Shown: positions 24,205 through 57,243 of the stretch, in pieces
Numbering within the stretch: the first letter of the stretch is position 1
Layout: the number at the start of each line of letters is the position of its first letter
Source of the DNA: Lacticaseibacillus suibinensis
Lineage (GTDB): Bacteria; Bacillota; Bacilli; Lactobacillales; Lactobacillaceae
Length of the DNA stretch: 64,000 bases
Direction of reading: 5' to 3'
Assembly (NCBI RefSeq): GCF_003946175.1
Contig: NZ_RHOK01000014.1
Location: 1-64,000, forward strand
The notes under the pieces: model-generated
Seen by the model: only the letters and a program-made list of their open reading frames with translations
Database searches by the model: none
Told to the model about the DNA's origin: nothing
Made by a program: the position numbers and the translations under genes

Positions 24205-25119
24205 CTATTTGCTTTCTTGTTTGAGCAGTTTGCCAACCGCTGGGATTTGACCCAAGGAGTCAATGGCGGTACTTGGCATTACGACCGTATTGGCATCACC
24301 TTTGGCCAAAGCTTCAAGCGCTTCGACGTTCTTGTAGGTGAGGTAAAGTTCGCCATGGTTTTCCAACCCTTCGTTGATGGAGTTGATTTGATCGCGGACC
24401 GCTTCGGCAATCAAGCGTTGGCTCTCGGCTTTCCCTTGGGCGTCCAGAATCTGGGTTTCCTTGCTGGCTTGCGCGTGCAGGATGTCAGATTGCTTTTCCC
24501 CTTCGGCCTTAGCAATGGCGGCTTGCTTCAAACCTTCCGCTTCCATGATGTTGGCTTCCTTTTCCCGGGAAGCACGGAGCAGTTTGTTCATGGATTCTTG
24601 AATTGTTTTGTCCACCTGGATGGAGTCGATATTGACGCGATCGACGTTCAGGCCGTAGCCGGCGGTGGTGGTGGCGATTTGCTGGAACAGGGTTTGGTTA
24701 ATCGTCTCGGTGCCATTGAGGACATCATTCAGATCCATGTTCCCAATGATGCCGCGCAAGTTGGCGCGGGTATCTTGTACCATGGACAGCACGGAGTCTT
24801 TGTTTTGGTAAACATAGGCGTTAACGTCGGTGATATGATACTTCAAGGTTTCGGAAATGCGCACCACGACGTTATCTTTGGTGATGACTTCTTGTTCGTC
24901 GACTTTCAACGGAATTTGCTTCATGTTCACAATTTCAGTGATGCGATAGATGAACGGCGGCACCACATGAAAACCTGGTTCCAGCGTTTGCACGTATTTC
25001 CCTAACCGTTCCACAATGCCGACCTCACCAGTGTGGATAATGGCCACGCTGGAGAACAACATAATCACAAACAAGATGACAATAATTAAAACAATTGCCC
25101 AAATAATGATACTAACCAT
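24205..25119 (-). CDS. SPFH/Band 7 (stomatin-like) membrane protein
   Basis: A protein of 304 residues. One N-terminal membrane segment (IIIWAIVLIIVILFVIMLF) is followed by the SPFH domain (GIVERLGKYVQTLEPGFHVVPPFIYRI) and a long Ala/Glu/Lys-rich coiled coil (about 185-250) used for oligomer formation. Such proteins organise membrane microdomains and protease complexes. AGGAGG precedes the ATG. The gene follows a short NfeD-like gene 27 bases upstream on the same strand, the classical pairing for this family. Confidence 0.93.
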   Translation of the reverse strand: MVSIIIWAIVLIIVILFVIMLFSSVAIIHTGEVGIVERLGKYVQTLEPGFHVVPPFIYRITEIVNMKQIPLKVDEQEVITKDNVVVRISETLKYHITDVNAYVYQNKDSVLSMVQDTRANLRGIIGNMDLNDVLNGTETINQTLFQQIATTTAGYGLNVDRVNIDSIQVDKTIQESMNKLLRASREKEANIMEAEGLKQAAIAKAEGEKQSDILHAQASKETQILDAQGKAESQRLIAEAVRDQINSINEGLENHGELYLTYKNVEALEALAKGDANTVVMPSTAIDSLGQIPAVGKLLKQESK

Positions 25120-25146: not shown

Positions 25147-25338
25147 TCAAAACACTAACGTTTCGCTTGCCTTACGCACGCTCAGCCCCAACGCCTCTGC
25201 CCGGACGACGACCACTAAATCGCCGCTTTTAGCTTGGTCTAATACGTGGTAATGATAATGAATGCCATAAAGCGCAACATCGCCTGGCCCATCGTGAGTC
25301 AGGGTGAAGGTAGTGCCAATCAGCCGTTCATCTAACAT
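25147..25338 (-). CDS. Short protein resembling the NfeD C-terminal OB fold
   Basis: A protein of 63 residues without a membrane segment. The pattern LIGTTFTLTHDGPGDVALYGIHYHYHV...GDLVVVVRAEALGLSVRK recalls the beta-barrel (OB-fold) end domain of NfeD proteins (LIG...G.V...G......G..V.V......L.V). NfeD partners stomatin-like proteins, and the SPFH gene follows directly. It would be a reduced, soluble NfeD. ATG 25338 has AAGGAGGAG six bases upstream; an upstream ATG lacks one. The family call is inference. Confidence 0.55.
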   Translation of the reverse strand: MLDERLIGTTFTLTHDGPGDVALYGIHYHYHVLDQAKSGDLVVVVRAEALGLSVRKASETLVF

Positions 25339-25388
25339 CTTCTCCTCCTTACTGCTGATGTCCATATCATAGCGAGTTTGGACAGGAG

Positions 25389-25412: not shown

Positions 25413-25516
25413 TTGCGCTATGCACTGTTTATTTTACAGGAAGAATGCCATTAGCGGGTGGCTTAGGTATAATAAACTTTATGCAAAGGCCAATTTGGCG
25501 AAAGGAGACCTTCACG

Positions 25517-26242
25517 GTGCCGAGACGAAAACGTCCCATCTATTCAAATACTTACCGCAAGCGGCGGCGCTGGCTGCTGGTGGCCGCAGTCGTCGCCTTG
25601 CTGGCAGCAGTGGGCCTCGGCGGCTGGCTGTGGAGCCAGCGGCGCACCGGTGTGGCCAAGTATGCGGTGCGCGGGGTGGTGGTCAGCCAAAGCGATGGTA
25701 ACGCCGATTTCCAGGCGCTCCAAAGCGAGGGCTTGCGCTTTGTGTATCTCAAAGGGACGCAAGGCGCGAGCTTTTTCGATGACACGTACAGCACCAACTA
25801 CGAGCAGGCCACCGGCAGCGGGCTAGCCGTGGGCGTTTACCATTACTTCAGCTTTGACAGCGATCCTGCCGTTCAAGCGCGGTACTTTGCCACCAAAGTC
25901 GGGAAAAATCTAGGGACCTTGCCCATCGGCATTCAAGTCGCTTTCTATGGCCAGTATGCGAATAAACCGCCGAAAAAGGCCGTGGTGGCGGCGAAGGTTC
26001 GGGCCTTTATCGTGGAGCTGCAGCGTTACACCACACATCCTTTTGTCTTGATGGGCAGCAAGCAGGTGCTGTCGGATTTGACCGAAGTGGCTTCTTCAGC
26101 GCCGCGCTGGCAGATTGGCGGCCATCCCGGCAAGCAGGCCCAGTATTGGCAAAGCGGCACGCTGAAAGCAGCCGGGACAGATTACACGGCTGTTGCCTAT
26201 TTGGCCACAACGAAGGCCTTCAAAGCCCAGCTCACCAACTAA
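25517..26242 (+). CDS. GH25-fold membrane protein lacking catalytic acids
   Basis: A protein of 241 residues: basic N-terminus, one membrane segment (about 19-38) and a single GH25 (Chalaropsis lysozyme) domain. The fold is recognisable from EGLRFVYLKGTQGASFFDDTY, GLAVGVYHYFSFDSD and YFATKVGKNLGTLPIGI. The acids needed for catalysis are replaced: Asp of GIDVS is Val55, Glu of KATEG is Gln82, and Asp and Glu of LDVE are Gln140 and Ala142. It is probably a peptidoglycan-binding pseudoenzyme. GTG 25517 has AAAGGAG upstream; the next gene follows after 80 bases. Confidence 0.8.
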   Translation: MPRRKRPIYSNTYRKRRRWLLVAAVVALLAAVGLGGWLWSQRRTGVAKYAVRGVVVSQSDGNADFQALQSEGLRFVYLKGTQGASFFDDTYSTNYEQATGSGLAVGVYHYFSFDSDPAVQARYFATKVGKNLGTLPIGIQVAFYGQYANKPPKKAVVAAKVRAFIVELQRYTTHPFVLMGSKQVLSDLTEVASSAPRWQIGGHPGKQAQYWQSGTLKAAGTDYTAVAYLATTKAFKAQLTN

Positions 26243-26323: not shown

Positions 26324-26680
26324 ATGAAAAAATTCTTGATTGCGTTGGTTTTGCTTGTGGCCTTGGCCTTTGGCGGTTTCAAATGGTATGAAGTCACCAA
26401 CTATGGTGGCACGACCTACTACACGAAAATCACCACTGCCGGCACGAAAATCAATCAACGGGACAAAGCCGGCAATGTTTATGCCGATTATCGCTATGAA
26501 CTGACTGGGTACGATGACAAAGGCAAGCGCCAAACCCTGACCTTTAACGCCAACAAATCCCGGCCGCTGCGCCGCGGGGCTTATCTCAAGCTGGTGTATA
26601 ACACGAAAAAAGGGGTCACGAGCTGGGAAGCCGTTGATGCGGTGGACTTACCGAAACAGGCCCAAAATAATCTTGAATAG
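26324..26680 (+). CDS. YxeA-family (DUF1093) secreted protein
   Basis: A protein of 118 residues with an N-terminal hydrophobic segment (FLIALVLLVALAFGGF), either signal peptide or anchor. The rest fits the YxeA family: GGTTYYTKI, YRYELTGYDDKGKRQTLTFNA, RPLRRGAYLKLVYNTKKGVTSWE. These small OB-like exported proteins have no established function. GAGGTG lies upstream of the ATG. It may share a message with the GH25-like gene. A bidirectional terminator follows. Confidence 0.85.
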   Translation: MKKFLIALVLLVALAFGGFKWYEVTNYGGTTYYTKITTAGTKINQRDKAGNVYADYRYELTGYDDKGKRQTLTFNANKSRPLRRGAYLKLVYNTKKGVTSWEAVDAVDLPKQAQNNLE

Positions 26681-26702: not shown

Positions 26703-26740
26703 ATGGATGATCCGCAACGCTGCGGGTCATCCATTTTTTA
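26703..26740. terminator. Bidirectional terminator
   Basis: ATGGATGATCCGCA pairs with TGCGGGTCATCCAT and is followed by six T residues, between two convergent genes. Confidence 0.88.
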
Positions 26741-27100
26741 ATTGTCAGTCGTGGGTTTAATAATTTGGTAGGTGGCGTCTTCCGCCTCGTCGTAAATTGT
26801 GGCGGGCCCAGCGCTGTCAGCAGTGATGATGAGCTGGTAGCCGTAGTGATCGAGAAAGGTCAGCTTGTCGGTGGTGATGCCAGTAACCGTGCCAGGGAGG
26901 GTGCTGCCATCAATTTTGATGTTGAGGGCAGGGGAAATCATCAGCTGGTGGGTTTTATGTGTCAGCTCGTCCAAAAAGGCGTATTTGCCCGTGTACTGCA
27001 GCGCCAAGGCCTCAACGGCAGTGGGTGCTGGGTGCGCGGGTTTACGATGCGGCACCTTTTTTTCGATTGAGTTGACCATTTTTTTGAAAAACGACGCCAT
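26738..27100 (-). CDS. DUF4828 domain protein
   Basis: A protein of about 120 residues. YTGKYAFLDELTHKTHQLMISPALNIKIDG...LTFLDHYGYQLII...ATIYDEAEDATYQI fits DUF4828, a small domain typical of lactobacilli with unknown function. The N-terminus (MASFFKKMVNSIEKKV) is an amphipathic basic helix that may touch the membrane. Three ATG codons lie at 27109, 27106 and 27100; the last has GGGAGGG nine bases upstream and was chosen. It is a single gene, convergent with the YxeA gene. Confidence 0.75.
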   Translation of the reverse strand: MASFFKKMVNSIEKKVPHRKPAHPAPTAVEALALQYTGKYAFLDELTHKTHQLMISPALNIKIDGSTLPGTVTGITTDKLTFLDHYGYQLIITADSAGPATIYDEAEDATYQIIKPTTDN

Positions 27101-27254
27101 ACCCATCATCCCTCCCTGATGTGTGGTTTGAGCAACCCCTTACTCTGATGCTCTTATCATAGCACGCTGAGTATTACATCCGGTTATATTTCTGTTTACA
27201 ATAATATGAGCGAAATATTTCAAAAAAAGGCAGGCGGCAACGCAGCCGGTGAGA

Positions 27255-27263: not shown

Positions 27264-27289
27264 GAAGCTATGTGAAAGGAAGGTGCGTC

Positions 27290-28270
27290 ATGAAATTAGG
27301 TATCATTGGGACCAATTGGATTACCCAACAATTCGTCGAAGCCGCCGAAAGTACTGGTGACTATCAGCTCACCGCCATCTACTCGCGGCATGAGGCTACG
27401 GCCGCCGCGTTTGCGGCCAAGACCCATGAGGCGACGCTTTACACCGAGTTGCCAGCATTTTTCGCCAGCGACCTCGACGTGGTGTATATTGCTAGCCCCA
27501 ATGGCCTGCATGCCGAGCAAGCCGCGGCGGCGCTAACCGCTGGCAAGCATGTGATTGTTGAAAAGCCAATGGTGACGCACCCCAGTCAACTGGCTTTGAT
27601 CGAATCCGCGCAAGCCGCACATCCGGAATGCCTGATTTTTGAGGCGGCGCGGCATGTCTATGATTCCAACTTCGCCAAGATCACCGCCCTCGTGCAACAG
27701 CGGCGGGCAACTTTGACTGGGGCGACACTGGTGTATGCCAAATATTCTTCCCGTTATGATGCCTATCTGGCCGGCGAAAATCCCAACATTTTCTCCCCAC
27801 GCTTTGGCGGCGGGGCACTGATGGATTTGGGCGTGTACTCAGTCTATGCGGCGGTGGCTTGGTTCGGGGTGCCGGAGCAAGTTGAGTATCTGCCAAGCAT
27901 GCTGGCCAGCGGGGTCGACGGCGGCGGGGTGGCCCATTTGCACTACACCGATGTCGACGTCAATCTCATACTCGGCAAAAACTACAACACCAGCGCCAGC
28001 AGTGAAATCCATTTTGGCAAAACGACGCTGCAACTCGGGGCCACCGGTAGCCTTGATGAACTAAGGCTGGTTGGCGCGGAAACCGACGACTTGCACGTGG
28101 CGCAACCGGCGAACCCGATGGTGGACGAGGCGCGGTATTTTGCTCACGCCCTGCTAACGCACGATCAGGCCGCTTTTGAGCGGCAATGGCGCCTTGCGAA
28201 GCAGGTTCATCAGGTGCTCGGCGACTTGCGCGGGACCACCACCATCAAATTTGGCAACGACCCGCAATAG
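27290..28270 (+). CDS. Gfo/Idh/MocA-family oxidoreductase
   Basis: A protein of 326 residues. The N-terminal Rossmann fold (KLGIIGTNWITQQFVEAA) binds NAD(P), and VYIASPNGLHAEQAAAALTAGKHVIVEKPM is the family's EKP motif. The C-terminal half is the alpha/beta substrate domain (GGGALMDLGVYSVYAA). The first glycine motif is GTNWI rather than GxGxxG, as in some relatives. It probably oxidises or reduces a sugar or polyol; the substrate cannot be told. AAAGGAAGG precedes ATG 27290. It is followed after 14 bases by the DEAD-box helicase gene. Confidence 0.9.
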   Translation: MKLGIIGTNWITQQFVEAAESTGDYQLTAIYSRHEATAAAFAAKTHEATLYTELPAFFASDLDVVYIASPNGLHAEQAAAALTAGKHVIVEKPMVTHPSQLALIESAQAAHPECLIFEAARHVYDSNFAKITALVQQRRATLTGATLVYAKYSSRYDAYLAGENPNIFSPRFGGGALMDLGVYSVYAAVAWFGVPEQVEYLPSMLASGVDGGGVAHLHYTDVDVNLILGKNYNTSASSEIHFGKTTLQLGATGSLDELRLVGAETDDLHVAQPANPMVDEARYFAHALLTHDQAAFERQWRLAKQVHQVLGDLRGTTTIKFGNDPQ

Positions 28271-28284
28271 GGTAAGGAGAAAAC

Positions 28285-29568
28285 ATGGCAATTGCATCCA
28301 TTTTTCAGCCGTTGTGGCAAGCGGCCGGCTTTACTGAAGAAACACCGATTCAAACGGCGGTTTACCAACCGCTTAAACAAGATCAGTCCGTCGTCGGCCT
28401 GGCTCCCACCGGCTCTGGCAAAACGCTCGCTTTTGGCCTGCCTTTGCTGGAGAAGCTGGTGCCAGATGACGGCCTCCAGCTTCTGATTTTAGCCCCGTCC
28501 CAAGAGCTGGCCATTCAAACCCGTGATGTGCTGCGGCCGTATGCGAAAGCGGCCGGGTTGAATTTGCAAGGGGTGACCGGCTCGGCTAACGTCAAGCGCC
28601 AGCTGGAGGTGCTGAAGCAGCATCCAGAGGTGATTGTGGCGACAGCCGGCCGCCTGCTGGAGCTAGTGGATTCGCGTCGTGTGAGTCTGGCCCGGCTACA
28701 GACACTGGTGATCGATGAGGCCGACGAAATGCTGCGTGAACCAGGTCTGTCCCAGGTGCGCGAATTGGCGCAAGCGGCGCCGGCTGATGTGCAGCTGGGC
28801 TTCTTCTCCGCCACCGATAGCCCCATGTTTCAAGAGTTGGCTAAGTGGTTTGGGCAGGCCGTTGAGCGCGTTGATGTGCGGGCGATTGACCATACCCAAG
28901 GGGCGGTCACGCATTATTTTGTCCAAACTGATAACGCGCACCGCGAAGTCTGGCTCAGGCACTTGGCCCATCTCGACAAGTTCCAGGCGCTGGTGTTCTT
29001 CAATCAAAACGCGGTGATGATGAAGGTGGCGCGCACGCTGAGCCATCAAAGCGTCAAGTTTGCGGTGCTGAACCGCACCGACCGCGCCACCACCCGGGCG
29101 AACGCCTTAAACGCGTTTCGCAAAGGCAAAGTGACCTTGCTGCTGGTGACGGATCTGGCCGGCCGGGGCCTAGATATTCCGCACCTGCCGGCGGTAATCA
29201 ATTACCAGACGCCAACGCGGCCGGAAGCCTACATTCATCGCTCAGGCCGGACCGGCCGGATGGGGGCGGCGGGGATGGTCATCACCCTCGGCGATGATCA
29301 TGACCTGCGTGATTTGCGCCGGCTAGTGCCCCAGTATCAGATTGTCCGGGGCTATTTGAATGACGGTAAAATGAGCACCGAGGCGCCGGTCGAACAGGCC
29401 AAACCAGCCCGCCCAGCCAAGTTGGTGTCGCCAGCGCAACCAAACACGCCGGCAGCGCAGCGCCATGCGCATGCCACTGGCGAAACGGCTGCGCCAGCAC
29501 CCAAGAAAGCCCACAAGAAGAATCGGTTGCGGGATCGGAAGAATAAAGGGAAGCGCAAGGCGAAATAA
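28285..29568 (+). CDS. DEAD-box ATP-dependent RNA helicase
   Basis: A protein of 427 residues. Motifs in order: Q-motif region (TPIQTAVY), APTGSGKT (Walker A), LAPSQELAIQ, TAGRLLELV, VIDEADEML (DEAD), FSATDS, LLLVTDLAGRGLDIP and HRSGRTGRMG. The last 80 residues are a Pro/Ala linker and a strongly basic tail (KKAHKKNRLRDRKNKGKRK) suited to binding RNA. Such helicases act in ribosome assembly or RNA turnover, often in the cold. The short, divergent first domain makes a precise CshA/CshB assignment unsafe. Confidence 0.93.
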   Translation: MAIASIFQPLWQAAGFTEETPIQTAVYQPLKQDQSVVGLAPTGSGKTLAFGLPLLEKLVPDDGLQLLILAPSQELAIQTRDVLRPYAKAAGLNLQGVTGSANVKRQLEVLKQHPEVIVATAGRLLELVDSRRVSLARLQTLVIDEADEMLREPGLSQVRELAQAAPADVQLGFFSATDSPMFQELAKWFGQAVERVDVRAIDHTQGAVTHYFVQTDNAHREVWLRHLAHLDKFQALVFFNQNAVMMKVARTLSHQSVKFAVLNRTDRATTRANALNAFRKGKVTLLLVTDLAGRGLDIPHLPAVINYQTPTRPEAYIHRSGRTGRMGAAGMVITLGDDHDLRDLRRLVPQYQIVRGYLNDGKMSTEAPVEQAKPARPAKLVSPAQPNTPAAQRHAHATGETAAPAPKKAHKKNRLRDRKNKGKRKAK

Positions 29569-54585: not shown

Positions 54586-57243
54586 CTAGCGATTGATTTT
54601 TACCCCACGAGCGTCAATCCAGAGTTGGCGACCATTGCTGAGCTGAATCAAGTAGAAGCGGTTACCCGCTGCTGTTGGTCTTGTTGTGGTGACGTCCTTG
54701 AGAATCTTTACGCTCTGTTTATTGAACTGAAGGGCGTTCGTGTTTGGCAGCACCGACATTGCATCGGTGTAATACGGGGCAGAGTACAAACCATCACTTC
54801 GGCCAGCCTGGTTAATGGTTCCGGTCAGAGAGACCGACTTCTCACTAACAATCGTGTCGTAGCTGATCGGTTTCAGCGCAAGCTTGTCAATCCACTTGGT
54901 GGTCCCGTCTGGCAACTTAACCTTTGCGTAAGTGCCCTGACTAGTGGTGCCTTCTTCGAGCACGGTGACACCGCGGCCGTTGAAGGTTGTTGCTAGGGAG
55001 TTAGGCGTTACGCTATCCAGGTTGCTCTTGTATGGATGCGCGTACAGCCCATCCTTACGAGAGCTTTGGTTAATGACAGCGGTATAGCTCACCGTGTGTT
55101 GGTTGCTAACGGCGTCAAGCGGAATCAGCGTGACACCATTGGCATCAATCCACAGGCTTCGCCCGTTCGTTAATGTAATCTGGTAAAAGCGATTGCCTGC
55201 AGCAGCAGAGCGATTCGTCGTTTTCTCAGCGGTGATTTTGACCAGTTGGTTATCAAACAAGCGGGCGTTCTGATTTGGGGTGACCGTTAGGACATCTGTA
55301 TACCATGGAGCCGAGTATAAGCCGTCCTGCCGGCCACTCTGATTGATGCGGCCACCTAACGAAAGGGGCTTGGTTGCAGTTACCGTATTCAGGGTAAGGA
55401 GCTTGATCCCACGGCTATCAATCCAATGTTTGTTGCCATTTGCAAACTGAATCTCATAAAAGTGATTGCCGAGTTTGCTATTCCGTGAGGTTGTCTTCTC
55501 GGTTAACACGGTCACGGCTTGCCCGTTGAACAGTTTTGCATTCTGATTTGCCGTGATGGTAAGGGCGTCGGTAAACCATGGCGCCGAATATAACCCGTCC
55601 TGGCGACCAGTTTGGTCGATTACGCCGACGCGGTCCAAGGTGGTGGTGCTCGTAACTTTGTCGTAGATATCCGTGGTTAAACCGCGTTTATCAATCCATT
55701 CGACTCGGCCATCGGGAAGGGTGATTTCGCAATAAGTGCCATTTGGAATGGTTGCTTCAGCACTAACGGTGACGATATCACCGTCAAATTGAGGCGCATT
55801 CGTGTTGGCGTAAATATTGGATAGTTTGGTGTTGTATGGTCCATCTGGATATAGTCCATCGCTGCGTGTGGTTTGCACAATTTTAGCGCGATAACTGGTC
55901 TTAATCTGATGAGTTGGGGTGAGAAAGGGTACAACTTTTACGGCACGAGTATCAGTCCAGAAGGTTCTTCCGTCGACTAACCGCACCTGATAGAATGTGT
56001 TGCCAGACGCAGCACTGCGAGTGGTTGTGGCTTTGCTGAGAATCTGGACAGTCTGCCCATTAAAGGCGGTTGCATTTGTATTCGGGGTAATAGTCATGTT
56101 GTCAGTATAGTAAGGCGCTGAGTAGAAGCCATCTTGGCGGGACGATTGATCAATCTTCCCTCCTAGATTCACTGCTTGGGTGGCAGTGACCTTGTCATAA
56201 ACGATTGACTTAGAGAACAAGCTCGAGTAATCGATCGAGGCATCCACGCTTGCGCTGTAGCCCGGAATTCTGGCCACTGAGGAAAACTGCCAGGCGCCAA
56301 AGTCGAGATTCCACAGGTTCGACGCACTGGGCGTGTATGGATACTGGGCTACCCAGGTTCGTGCTTTACCAACGGTACCGATGGCTTGATTTGACCAGCT
56401 ATAGTTCTGTCCTGTGTAGAGGACTTGATTGGTGTAGCCCTTAGCCTGCAGTGTGCTCCAGAAGGCGTTCAGGTTAGTGGCCACGTCCCCGCCAACATCA
56501 GTATCTTCCAAATCAGCCACCACTGGCGCCGACTTGTCGACGCCGAGTTGTGCTAAGGTCGCAGCGTAATAGGTCGCTTCTGCGACTGCTGCGGACTTGG
56601 TGGCGAAGTGGACGTAATGATAGGTCGCAACTTTTAGCCCGGCGTTTAGTGCATATTTGAGCTGGGTTGCTGCATAGGGATTGCGATAGGAATTGCCTTC
56701 TGAAGTTTTGACGATCACCGCTTTGACGCCAAGTTGTATAAGCGTGGTGTAGTTTGCCTGGGACATCGCATTTTGATATGAAGCCACATCGATTGTGTCG
56801 ACGCGCGGGAACCCAGCCTGGCCAATGGTAAAGCTAGTCACTGTATCAGCGACCTGGACGATTTTCTGGCTTCGCCCGGTTTTCTTGTAGTCTTCTGTGG
56901 CCTCTGCTTTGGCAAAGGCCAACCATGCACTGGCTTGATTGGTCGTTATTGTTGTGGGCATACGCAGATAGTGCGTGCTCGAAGTTGACCCAGTTTCGTT
57001 GATATCGCTAGCTGTGAAGGTATGCTGCCCTTGATCGCCCAAGGTACCTTGCTCGATACTCGCTTGGCTGTGATGATTCGTTGTGTGAAAATCTATTGTT
57101 TTCGGGCTCGTGCTGACCAATGGGCTAATAATTTTCGAATTGATAGCCTCTACTGTCTTGGGCTGTGGACTTGTCATCATCAATAGGCAAAGACTTCCTC
57201 CGGTGAGAGTGGTAAAGACCAGATGTTTTTTTAAAAAATTCAT
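54586..57243 (-). CDS. Secreted GH25 lysozyme with six GW-like repeats
   Basis: A protein of 885 residues. A signal peptide (about 1-33) is followed by a variable Ser/Thr-rich region and a GH25 muramidase domain (about 145-345) with intact catalytic acids: Asp152 (TIDVASYQ), Glu182 (VKTSEGN), Asp244 and Glu246 (VVADLEDT). Six repeats of about 85-92 residues follow (from about 349), each with (I)(D/N)Q(S/T)(G/S)R.DG.Y and ending W(I/T)D..; these resemble GW/SH3 wall-binding modules. Repeats 2 and 5 are a shorter type. The enzyme probably binds and cuts wall or surface polymer. AGGAGG precedes the ATG. Confidence 0.93.
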   Translation of the reverse strand: MNFLKKHLVFTTLTGGSLCLLMMTSPQPKTVEAINSKIISPLVSTSPKTIDFHTTNHHSQASIEQGTLGDQGQHTFTASDINETGSTSSTHYLRMPTTITTNQASAWLAFAKAEATEDYKKTGRSQKIVQVADTVTSFTIGQAGFPRVDTIDVASYQNAMSQANYTTLIQLGVKAVIVKTSEGNSYRNPYAATQLKYALNAGLKVATYHYVHFATKSAAVAEATYYAATLAQLGVDKSAPVVADLEDTDVGGDVATNLNAFWSTLQAKGYTNQVLYTGQNYSWSNQAIGTVGKARTWVAQYPYTPSASNLWNLDFGAWQFSSVARIPGYSASVDASIDYSSLFSKSIVYDKVTATQAVNLGGKIDQSSRQDGFYSAPYYTDNMTITPNTNATAFNGQTVQILSKATTTRSAASGNTFYQVRLVDGRTFWTDTRAVKVVPFLTPTHQIKTSYRAKIVQTTRSDGLYPDGPYNTKLSNIYANTNAPQFDGDIVTVSAEATIPNGTYCEITLPDGRVEWIDKRGLTTDIYDKVTSTTTLDRVGVIDQTGRQDGLYSAPWFTDALTITANQNAKLFNGQAVTVLTEKTTSRNSKLGNHFYEIQFANGNKHWIDSRGIKLLTLNTVTATKPLSLGGRINQSGRQDGLYSAPWYTDVLTVTPNQNARLFDNQLVKITAEKTTNRSAAAGNRFYQITLTNGRSLWIDANGVTLIPLDAVSNQHTVSYTAVINQSSRKDGLYAHPYKSNLDSVTPNSLATTFNGRGVTVLEEGTTSQGTYAKVKLPDGTTKWIDKLALKPISYDTIVSEKSVSLTGTINQAGRSDGLYSAPYYTDAMSVLPNTNALQFNKQSVKILKDVTTTRPTAAGNRFYLIQLSNGRQLWIDARGVKINR

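Follow-up and report, generated by a model that had tools for sequence, protein, structure and literature searches.

The stretch of Lacticaseibacillus suibinensis DNA considered here (contig NZ_RHOK01000014.1, positions 1 to 64,000, i.e., 64,000 nucleotides; hereafter "the window") carries an open frame for a membrane-anchored protein of 241 amino acids that descends from the GH25 muramidases, has none of the four acids strictly conserved in these enzymes and is, we are nearly certain, both catalytically dead and kept. The frame (Table 1) begins with a GTG preceded by the ribosome-binding site GAAAGGAG, and this start is favored over the in-frame ATG codons found upstream because the similarity among orthologues reaches up to the GTG (M-xRRKRPIY...), the start of each orthologue being taken as the start codon closest to its match. 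The promoter-like site upstream is weak when taken alone, five such sites being found in the region by the consensus scan against 2.0 expected.

Translation, Pfam match and structural model give the order of the parts as a basic tail, predicted to be cytosolic, a single membrane helix and a GH25-type barrel. The protein scores 73.6 bits against the Pfam GH25 model (PF01183; cut-off 27), the sole NCBIfam match of P0001 being far below its cut-off. The AlphaFold2 model, built on a 79-row alignment with a mean predicted local distance difference test score (pLDDT) of 94.5 and a predicted template modeling score (pTM) of 0.84, is a GH25 barrel placed behind a single long N-terminal helix (residues 10-40). 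The closest solved structure, 2wag (Foldseek E 8e-14, Z 25.4, root-mean-square deviation 3.2 over 202 residues), leads a series of 19 first structure matches (VIA), all of them GH25 proteins; next comes Rv2525c (4pmq, 4pmr), a DUF1906 protein whose related barrel matches with Z ~14 at 10-11 % identity, no DUF1906 model being found among the Pfam matches of the window protein at E 0.01. These data bear out what had been claimed in an earlier sequence-only reading of the locus, namely clear GH25 fold landmarks, an intact frame with a good ribosome site and a membrane anchor, the last being seen both as a hydrophobic stretch of the translation and as the long helix of the model.

With the GH25 muramidases (CAZy GH25, PF01183) the protein shares the barrel fold and a significant sequence similarity, so that its descent is clear; unlike them, it is anchored in the membrane, carries a conserved tail and has lost the four strict acids along with a large part of the groove signature. 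A catalytic DXE motif is named for GH25 in the available extract of PMC7954357, and that of PMC3712932 gives the four strictly conserved acids as D6, D90, E92 and D171 of PlyB. In the alignment their counterparts in the window protein are V55, Q140, A142 and T224, the equivalence of D171 with position 224 being suggested by the C-terminal ID(M/L)N motif; the DXE site reads Q140-V-A142, i.e., the GH25 catalytic motif is absent, and Q82 is a further substitution. The sequence-only reading had listed V55, Q82, Q140 and A142 as the lost acids; the residues are right, but Q82 is not one of the four key positions, the fourth being T224, which it did not name. Since all four key acids are gone, and Q82 in addition, its conclusion of catalytic loss stands and is strengthened, although inactivity itself is here deduced from the substitutions. 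The enzyme it had offered as a contrast, encoded at 54586-57243 on the opposite strand of the same window, does have the acids, with IDV, SEG and DLE aligned and VDASIDY following in the translation; the whole 2.56-Mb assembly holds four GH25 matches.

The loss is common to the family. Conservation of the substituted positions in orthologues, which had been proposed as a check, was followed in 80 Lactobacillaceae sequences, 30 from the genus and 50 from 24 further genera: 75 lack all four acids, five keep one and no sequence keeps more, the gaps of three incomplete rows (one, one and three key positions affected) being scored as not kept. D55 occurs in 0/80 (one row is gapped there) and D140 together with E142 likewise in 0/80, while position 142 is occupied by T, S, A, V, G or N within the genus and elsewhere also by Q, D, E or others. 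Intact relatives were taken from a genome scan as the best 80 by similarity of at least 573, so that only the nearest are sampled; 38 of these 80 (L176-L180, L182-L214) have D, E, D and E at positions 55, 82, 140 and 142, and all four key acids are present in the 37 close relatives aligned (37/37).

The dead form is, furthermore, maintained. Matches are present in all 30 genomes of the genus, that of L. suibinensis included, as a single intact frame in 28. A single-query search of 201 Lactobacillaceae genomes, made with a hand-made consensus, yields a match at E 0.001 in 168, the weaker of which are probably ordinary GH25 enzymes; strong matches (best E 1e-15 or better) are found in 25 of the 40 genera sampled. 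When 246 genomes were drawn from the whole order, matches of E 1e-15 strength were confined to Lactobacillaceae and to one other family (f2), the best elsewhere being ~1e-9. The closest named orthologue among the matches listed is that of Lacticaseibacillus suilingensis (96-97 % in the best segment); between the two genes the nonsynonymous and synonymous rates are dN 0.019 and dS 0.346, with a ratio (dN/dS) of 0.055. The ratio is 0.041-0.150 in nine usable of ten pairs, one having been dropped for saturated whole-gene dS and three of the remaining nine being near saturation. Selection on the gene is purifying. The earlier suggestion that the protein is kept for another task is thus strongly supported by family-wide orthologues, synteny and dN/dS, and since the dead form is retained by selection, mostly at the same locus, across much of Lactobacillaceae, it probably has another job at the cell surface.

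The copies of family f2, present in four of 18 genomes, appear half-way along this path, E142 being kept in 4/4 and D224 in 3/4 with both D55 and D140 lost in 4/4. Three of them lie near YxeA and Gfo homologues, two also near RlmD and DagK and one near a DEAD gene, and are, on account of the shared YxeA and Gfo neighbors, orthologous by position too; the fourth (L127) has none of the five nearby. In a tree of 67 chosen rows, from which the substituted columns had been removed, f2 and Lactobacillaceae form one group with a value of 99 in the Shimodaira-Hasegawa-like approximate likelihood ratio test (SH-aLRT), and 43 Lactobacillaceae rows form another with 97; the tree comes from a quick short search with no bootstrap, its root falls on a long outgroup branch and 26 of 64 inner branches are left open. 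The nearest intact branch, among the matches listed, is made up of small GH25 proteins (Lachnospiraceae, Cellulomonas and others), of which 37/38 are 242-314 amino acids long with the domain behind an N-terminal segment and which differ in having the acids. The likely order of loss is D55 and D140 first, E142 and D224 later, and the half-way f2 copies together with the intact relatives make both this order and the switch of function testable.

Table 1. Coordinates, strand and supporting evidence of the features at the locus and of the f2 copies
Feature	Position	Strand	Evidence
Pseudo-GH25 protein gene, membrane-anchored, 241 aa	25517..26242	+	frame, Pfam, orthologues, dN/dS, model
Ribosome-binding site GAAAGGAG	25500..25507	+	sequence; comparable sites precede many orthologues
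Promoter-like site ATGCCA-17-TATAAT	25445..25473	+	consensus scan, 10/12 matches
Predicted cytosolic tail, residues 1-18, motif PIYxxT(Y/F)xxRRR	25517..25570	+	loose-motif counts
Predicted membrane helix, ~residues 19-41	25571..25639	+	hydrophobic stretch in translation; helix 10-40 in model
GH25-fold domain, residues 50-235	25664..26221	+	Pfam, model, fold matches
V55, D in intact relatives	25679..25681	+	D in 37/37 intact
Q82, E in intact relatives	25760..25762	+	E in 37/37 intact; genus E 16 / Q 14
Q140, first DXE acid lost	25934..25936	+	alignment
A142, catalytic Glu of DXE lost	25940..25942	+	alignment
T224, fourth key acid lost	26186..26188	+	D in 37/37 intact
YxeA / DUF1093 protein, downstream	26324..26680	+	adjoins in 12/18 named Lacticaseibacillus loci; near 3/4 outgroup (f2) copies
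DUF4828 protein	26738..27109	-	syntenic; 19/40 other-genera loci
Gfo/Idh/MocA dehydrogenase	27272..28270	+	31/40 other-genera loci; 33/41 named loci
DEAD-box helicase	28285..29568	+	36/40 other-genera loci
SPFH (Band_7) protein, divergent	24205-25119	-	Pfam; upstream in 16/18 named Lacticaseibacillus loci, divergent in 15
72-aa protein, divergent	25147-25365	-	no Pfam match
Contrast GH25 protein with acids, GW repeats	54586..57243	-	Pfam, alignment, translation
f2 copy keeping E142 and D224, without D55 and D140	L125:4992-5756	-	alignment
f2 copy keeping E142 and D224, without D55 and D140	L126:4950-5714	+	alignment
f2 copy keeping E142 and D224, without D55 and D140	L128:4986-5765	-	alignment

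What the other job may be is indicated by the positions that were kept and those that were relaxed in an alignment (A3) of 37 intact rows against 42 dead ones, the latter comprising the window protein and 41 named loci whose species largely recur among the 80 orthologues. Of the 34 domain positions invariant in the intact rows, seventeen are still strongly conserved in the dead ones (65 and 84 with another residue), whereas eleven are variable, including 55, 140, 142, 179, 200 and 224, whose information lies between the 11th and the 42nd percentile of the domain; at position 82 the residue is still Q or E (75th percentile). The relaxation is not limited to the acids, since Y179, R200 and W208, invariant or nearly so in the intact rows, vary in the dead ones, where aromatic 59 (Y/W in 35/37 intact rows) is also lost. 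Other positions have become newly fixed, namely Q58 (41/42), Y77, L78 and D89 (42/42 each) in the domain and I8, Y9 and T12 (32/42 each, 5 gaps) in the tail. Judging from their place in GH25 enzymes, the relaxed positions would line the groove. Selection acts on the fold and has largely released the signature of the old groove.

The tail motif, by contrast, is conserved in the genus. P7, I8, Y9 and T12 carry 3.5-3.6 bits (gaps ignored) against a domain mean of 2.46, and a loose form of the motif, P/V-I/V/A-Y/F-x-x-T/S within the first 25 residues, is found in all 30 proteins of the genus, that of the window included, in 22/50 from the others (in eight of 24 other genera), in 1/38 intact relatives, which looks like chance, and in 0/4 f2 copies; the motif seems, on these counts, confined to part of Lactobacillaceae. 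A search of the genome with one degenerate DNA spelling of the motif gave two matches, the gene itself and a frame that by eye is permease-like, against one in the reversed control.

The best explanation of the whole, which we consider evenly poised between right and wrong, is that of a bitopic pseudo-muramidase that connects the cytosol with the wall as a scaffold or regulator; the non-catalytic scaffold or regulatory role taken by itself is conceivable, if somewhat short of an even case. The outer part would be a muramidase barrel of the GH25 type, no longer able to cleave peptidoglycan; the tail, short, basic and marked by PIYxxT, would dock onto a partner in the cytosol or be a target of phosphorylation at Thr12, this residue being only a suggestion as a kinase site; and the barrel, lying near the membrane, would engage a protein of the envelope, thereby placing or tuning wall synthesis or hydrolysis. 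A more daring version, which we regard as unlikely, sees in the extinct muramidase a transmembrane coupling protein of Lactobacillaceae in which a cytosolic kinase or a division/elongation partner reads the PIYxxT tail and the dead barrel signals to the wall machinery; if true, it would represent a new fold class among the dead-hydrolase wall regulators.

The sequence-only reading had instead offered glycan binding as an example of such a task, which the present data do not support. As a lectin-like protein, and its predicted location on the outer side of the membrane speaks for this, the barrel would still hold on to glycan strands, in the old groove or close to it, but leave them uncut, and would so tether membrane to wall. 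We had given old-groove binding first place and demoted it after the contrast between intact and dead rows: a conserved ligand would be expected to hold more groove positions, so that plain glycan binding in the old cleft is disfavored by the relaxation of the non-acid residues Y179, R200, aromatic 59 and W208; binding may occur elsewhere on the barrel. The scaffold is ranked above the lectin because the fold is selected and the groove signature largely relaxed, and the lectin-like role is accordingly doubtful, without being far-fetched.

Several observations weigh against a scaffold or regulator. No partner was identified, and neither of the conserved neighbors, a dehydrogenase and a helicase, is a wall gene; 28 of the 50 orthologues from other genera and all four outgroup (f2) copies lack the tail motif; two of the 30 copies of the genus are split between frames; 15 of the 40 genera have no strong match, so that some lineages can do without the protein; and E or D is found at position 142 in 6/50 other-genera orthologues, which could mean weak activity there. 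In an alternative reading, another bond or substrate would be attacked through other acids, such as D60 or D89, or through the E142 of some members: D89 is invariant in the 42 dead rows, D60 is D in 32 of them, and E142 is retained in 4/4 f2 members and in 2/50 orthologues from other genera. D60, however, is N in 8/42 dead rows, neither it nor D89 aligns where one of the four acids has been lost, and all four are missing from the window protein, so that residual or altered catalysis seems very improbable. A decaying pseudogene or annotation artefact, suggested by the two split copies and by the 15 genera devoid of strong matches, is hardly credible and was rejected, 28/30 frames of the genus being intact, the dN/dS of 0.055 contradicting decay, synteny being mostly conserved across genera and the probable L. 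casei orthologue being transcribed according to the available part of PMC3288076. The split copies themselves lie at G004:C26:13165-13874 (L011) and G021:C12:57842-58476 (L034) and may reflect either true breakage or an assembly error.

Dead wall hydrolases acting as regulators are known from other folds; EnvC and NlpD, which are degenerate LytM factors, are dead wall hydrolases used in this way, and the comparison concerns the manner of working only, the LytM fold being unrelated to GH25. In the open-licence PMC literature, covered through titles, abstract starts or listings, no report of a GH25 pseudoenzyme or of a catalytically inactive Lactobacillus GH25 protein was found among the papers listed. 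The conserved pseudoenzyme branch of GH25 is real and its function a proposal, and a widespread, mostly syntenic pseudoenzyme of this kind would add a fold to the dead-hydrolase regulators in industrially important bacteria.

The annotation would also be corrected, since Pfam passes the protein as GH25 and a probable member is printed as a muramidase in the available part of PMC3288076. There, LCABL_12360 of L. casei BL23 is filed as a putative GH25 muramidase of 28.0 kDa with no signal peptide; it is one of twelve non-carboxypeptidase genes described as transcribed and is not among the seven proteins detected by proteomics. Five casei-group-like orthologues compute to 27.6-27.9 kDa, and LCABL_12360 is probably the orthologue of the window protein. 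For L. plantarum, the extract of PMC3533731 gives Lp_1158 and Lp_3093 as its two proteins of the GH25 type, either of which may be the orthologue.

Downstream of the gene the surroundings are largely shared, the counts for the 40 other-genera loci being affected by several loci that stop at contig ends, and the DUF4828 gene retains in many genera its antisense place between the pseudo-GH25 and Gfo/Idh genes. Upstream, the neighbors differ by genus and include a sugar kinase (by Pfam) as well as permeases and a regulator (by eye). Operon logic was considered as a clue to function and rejected, the conserved dehydrogenase, DEAD helicase and DUF4828 genes giving no link to the wall. As for the GH25 protein encoded at 54586-57243, it is 885 amino acids long with six GW stretches and is perhaps the counterpart of LCABL_02350, a 100.5-kDa GH25 protein of L. 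casei in the available part of PMC3288076.
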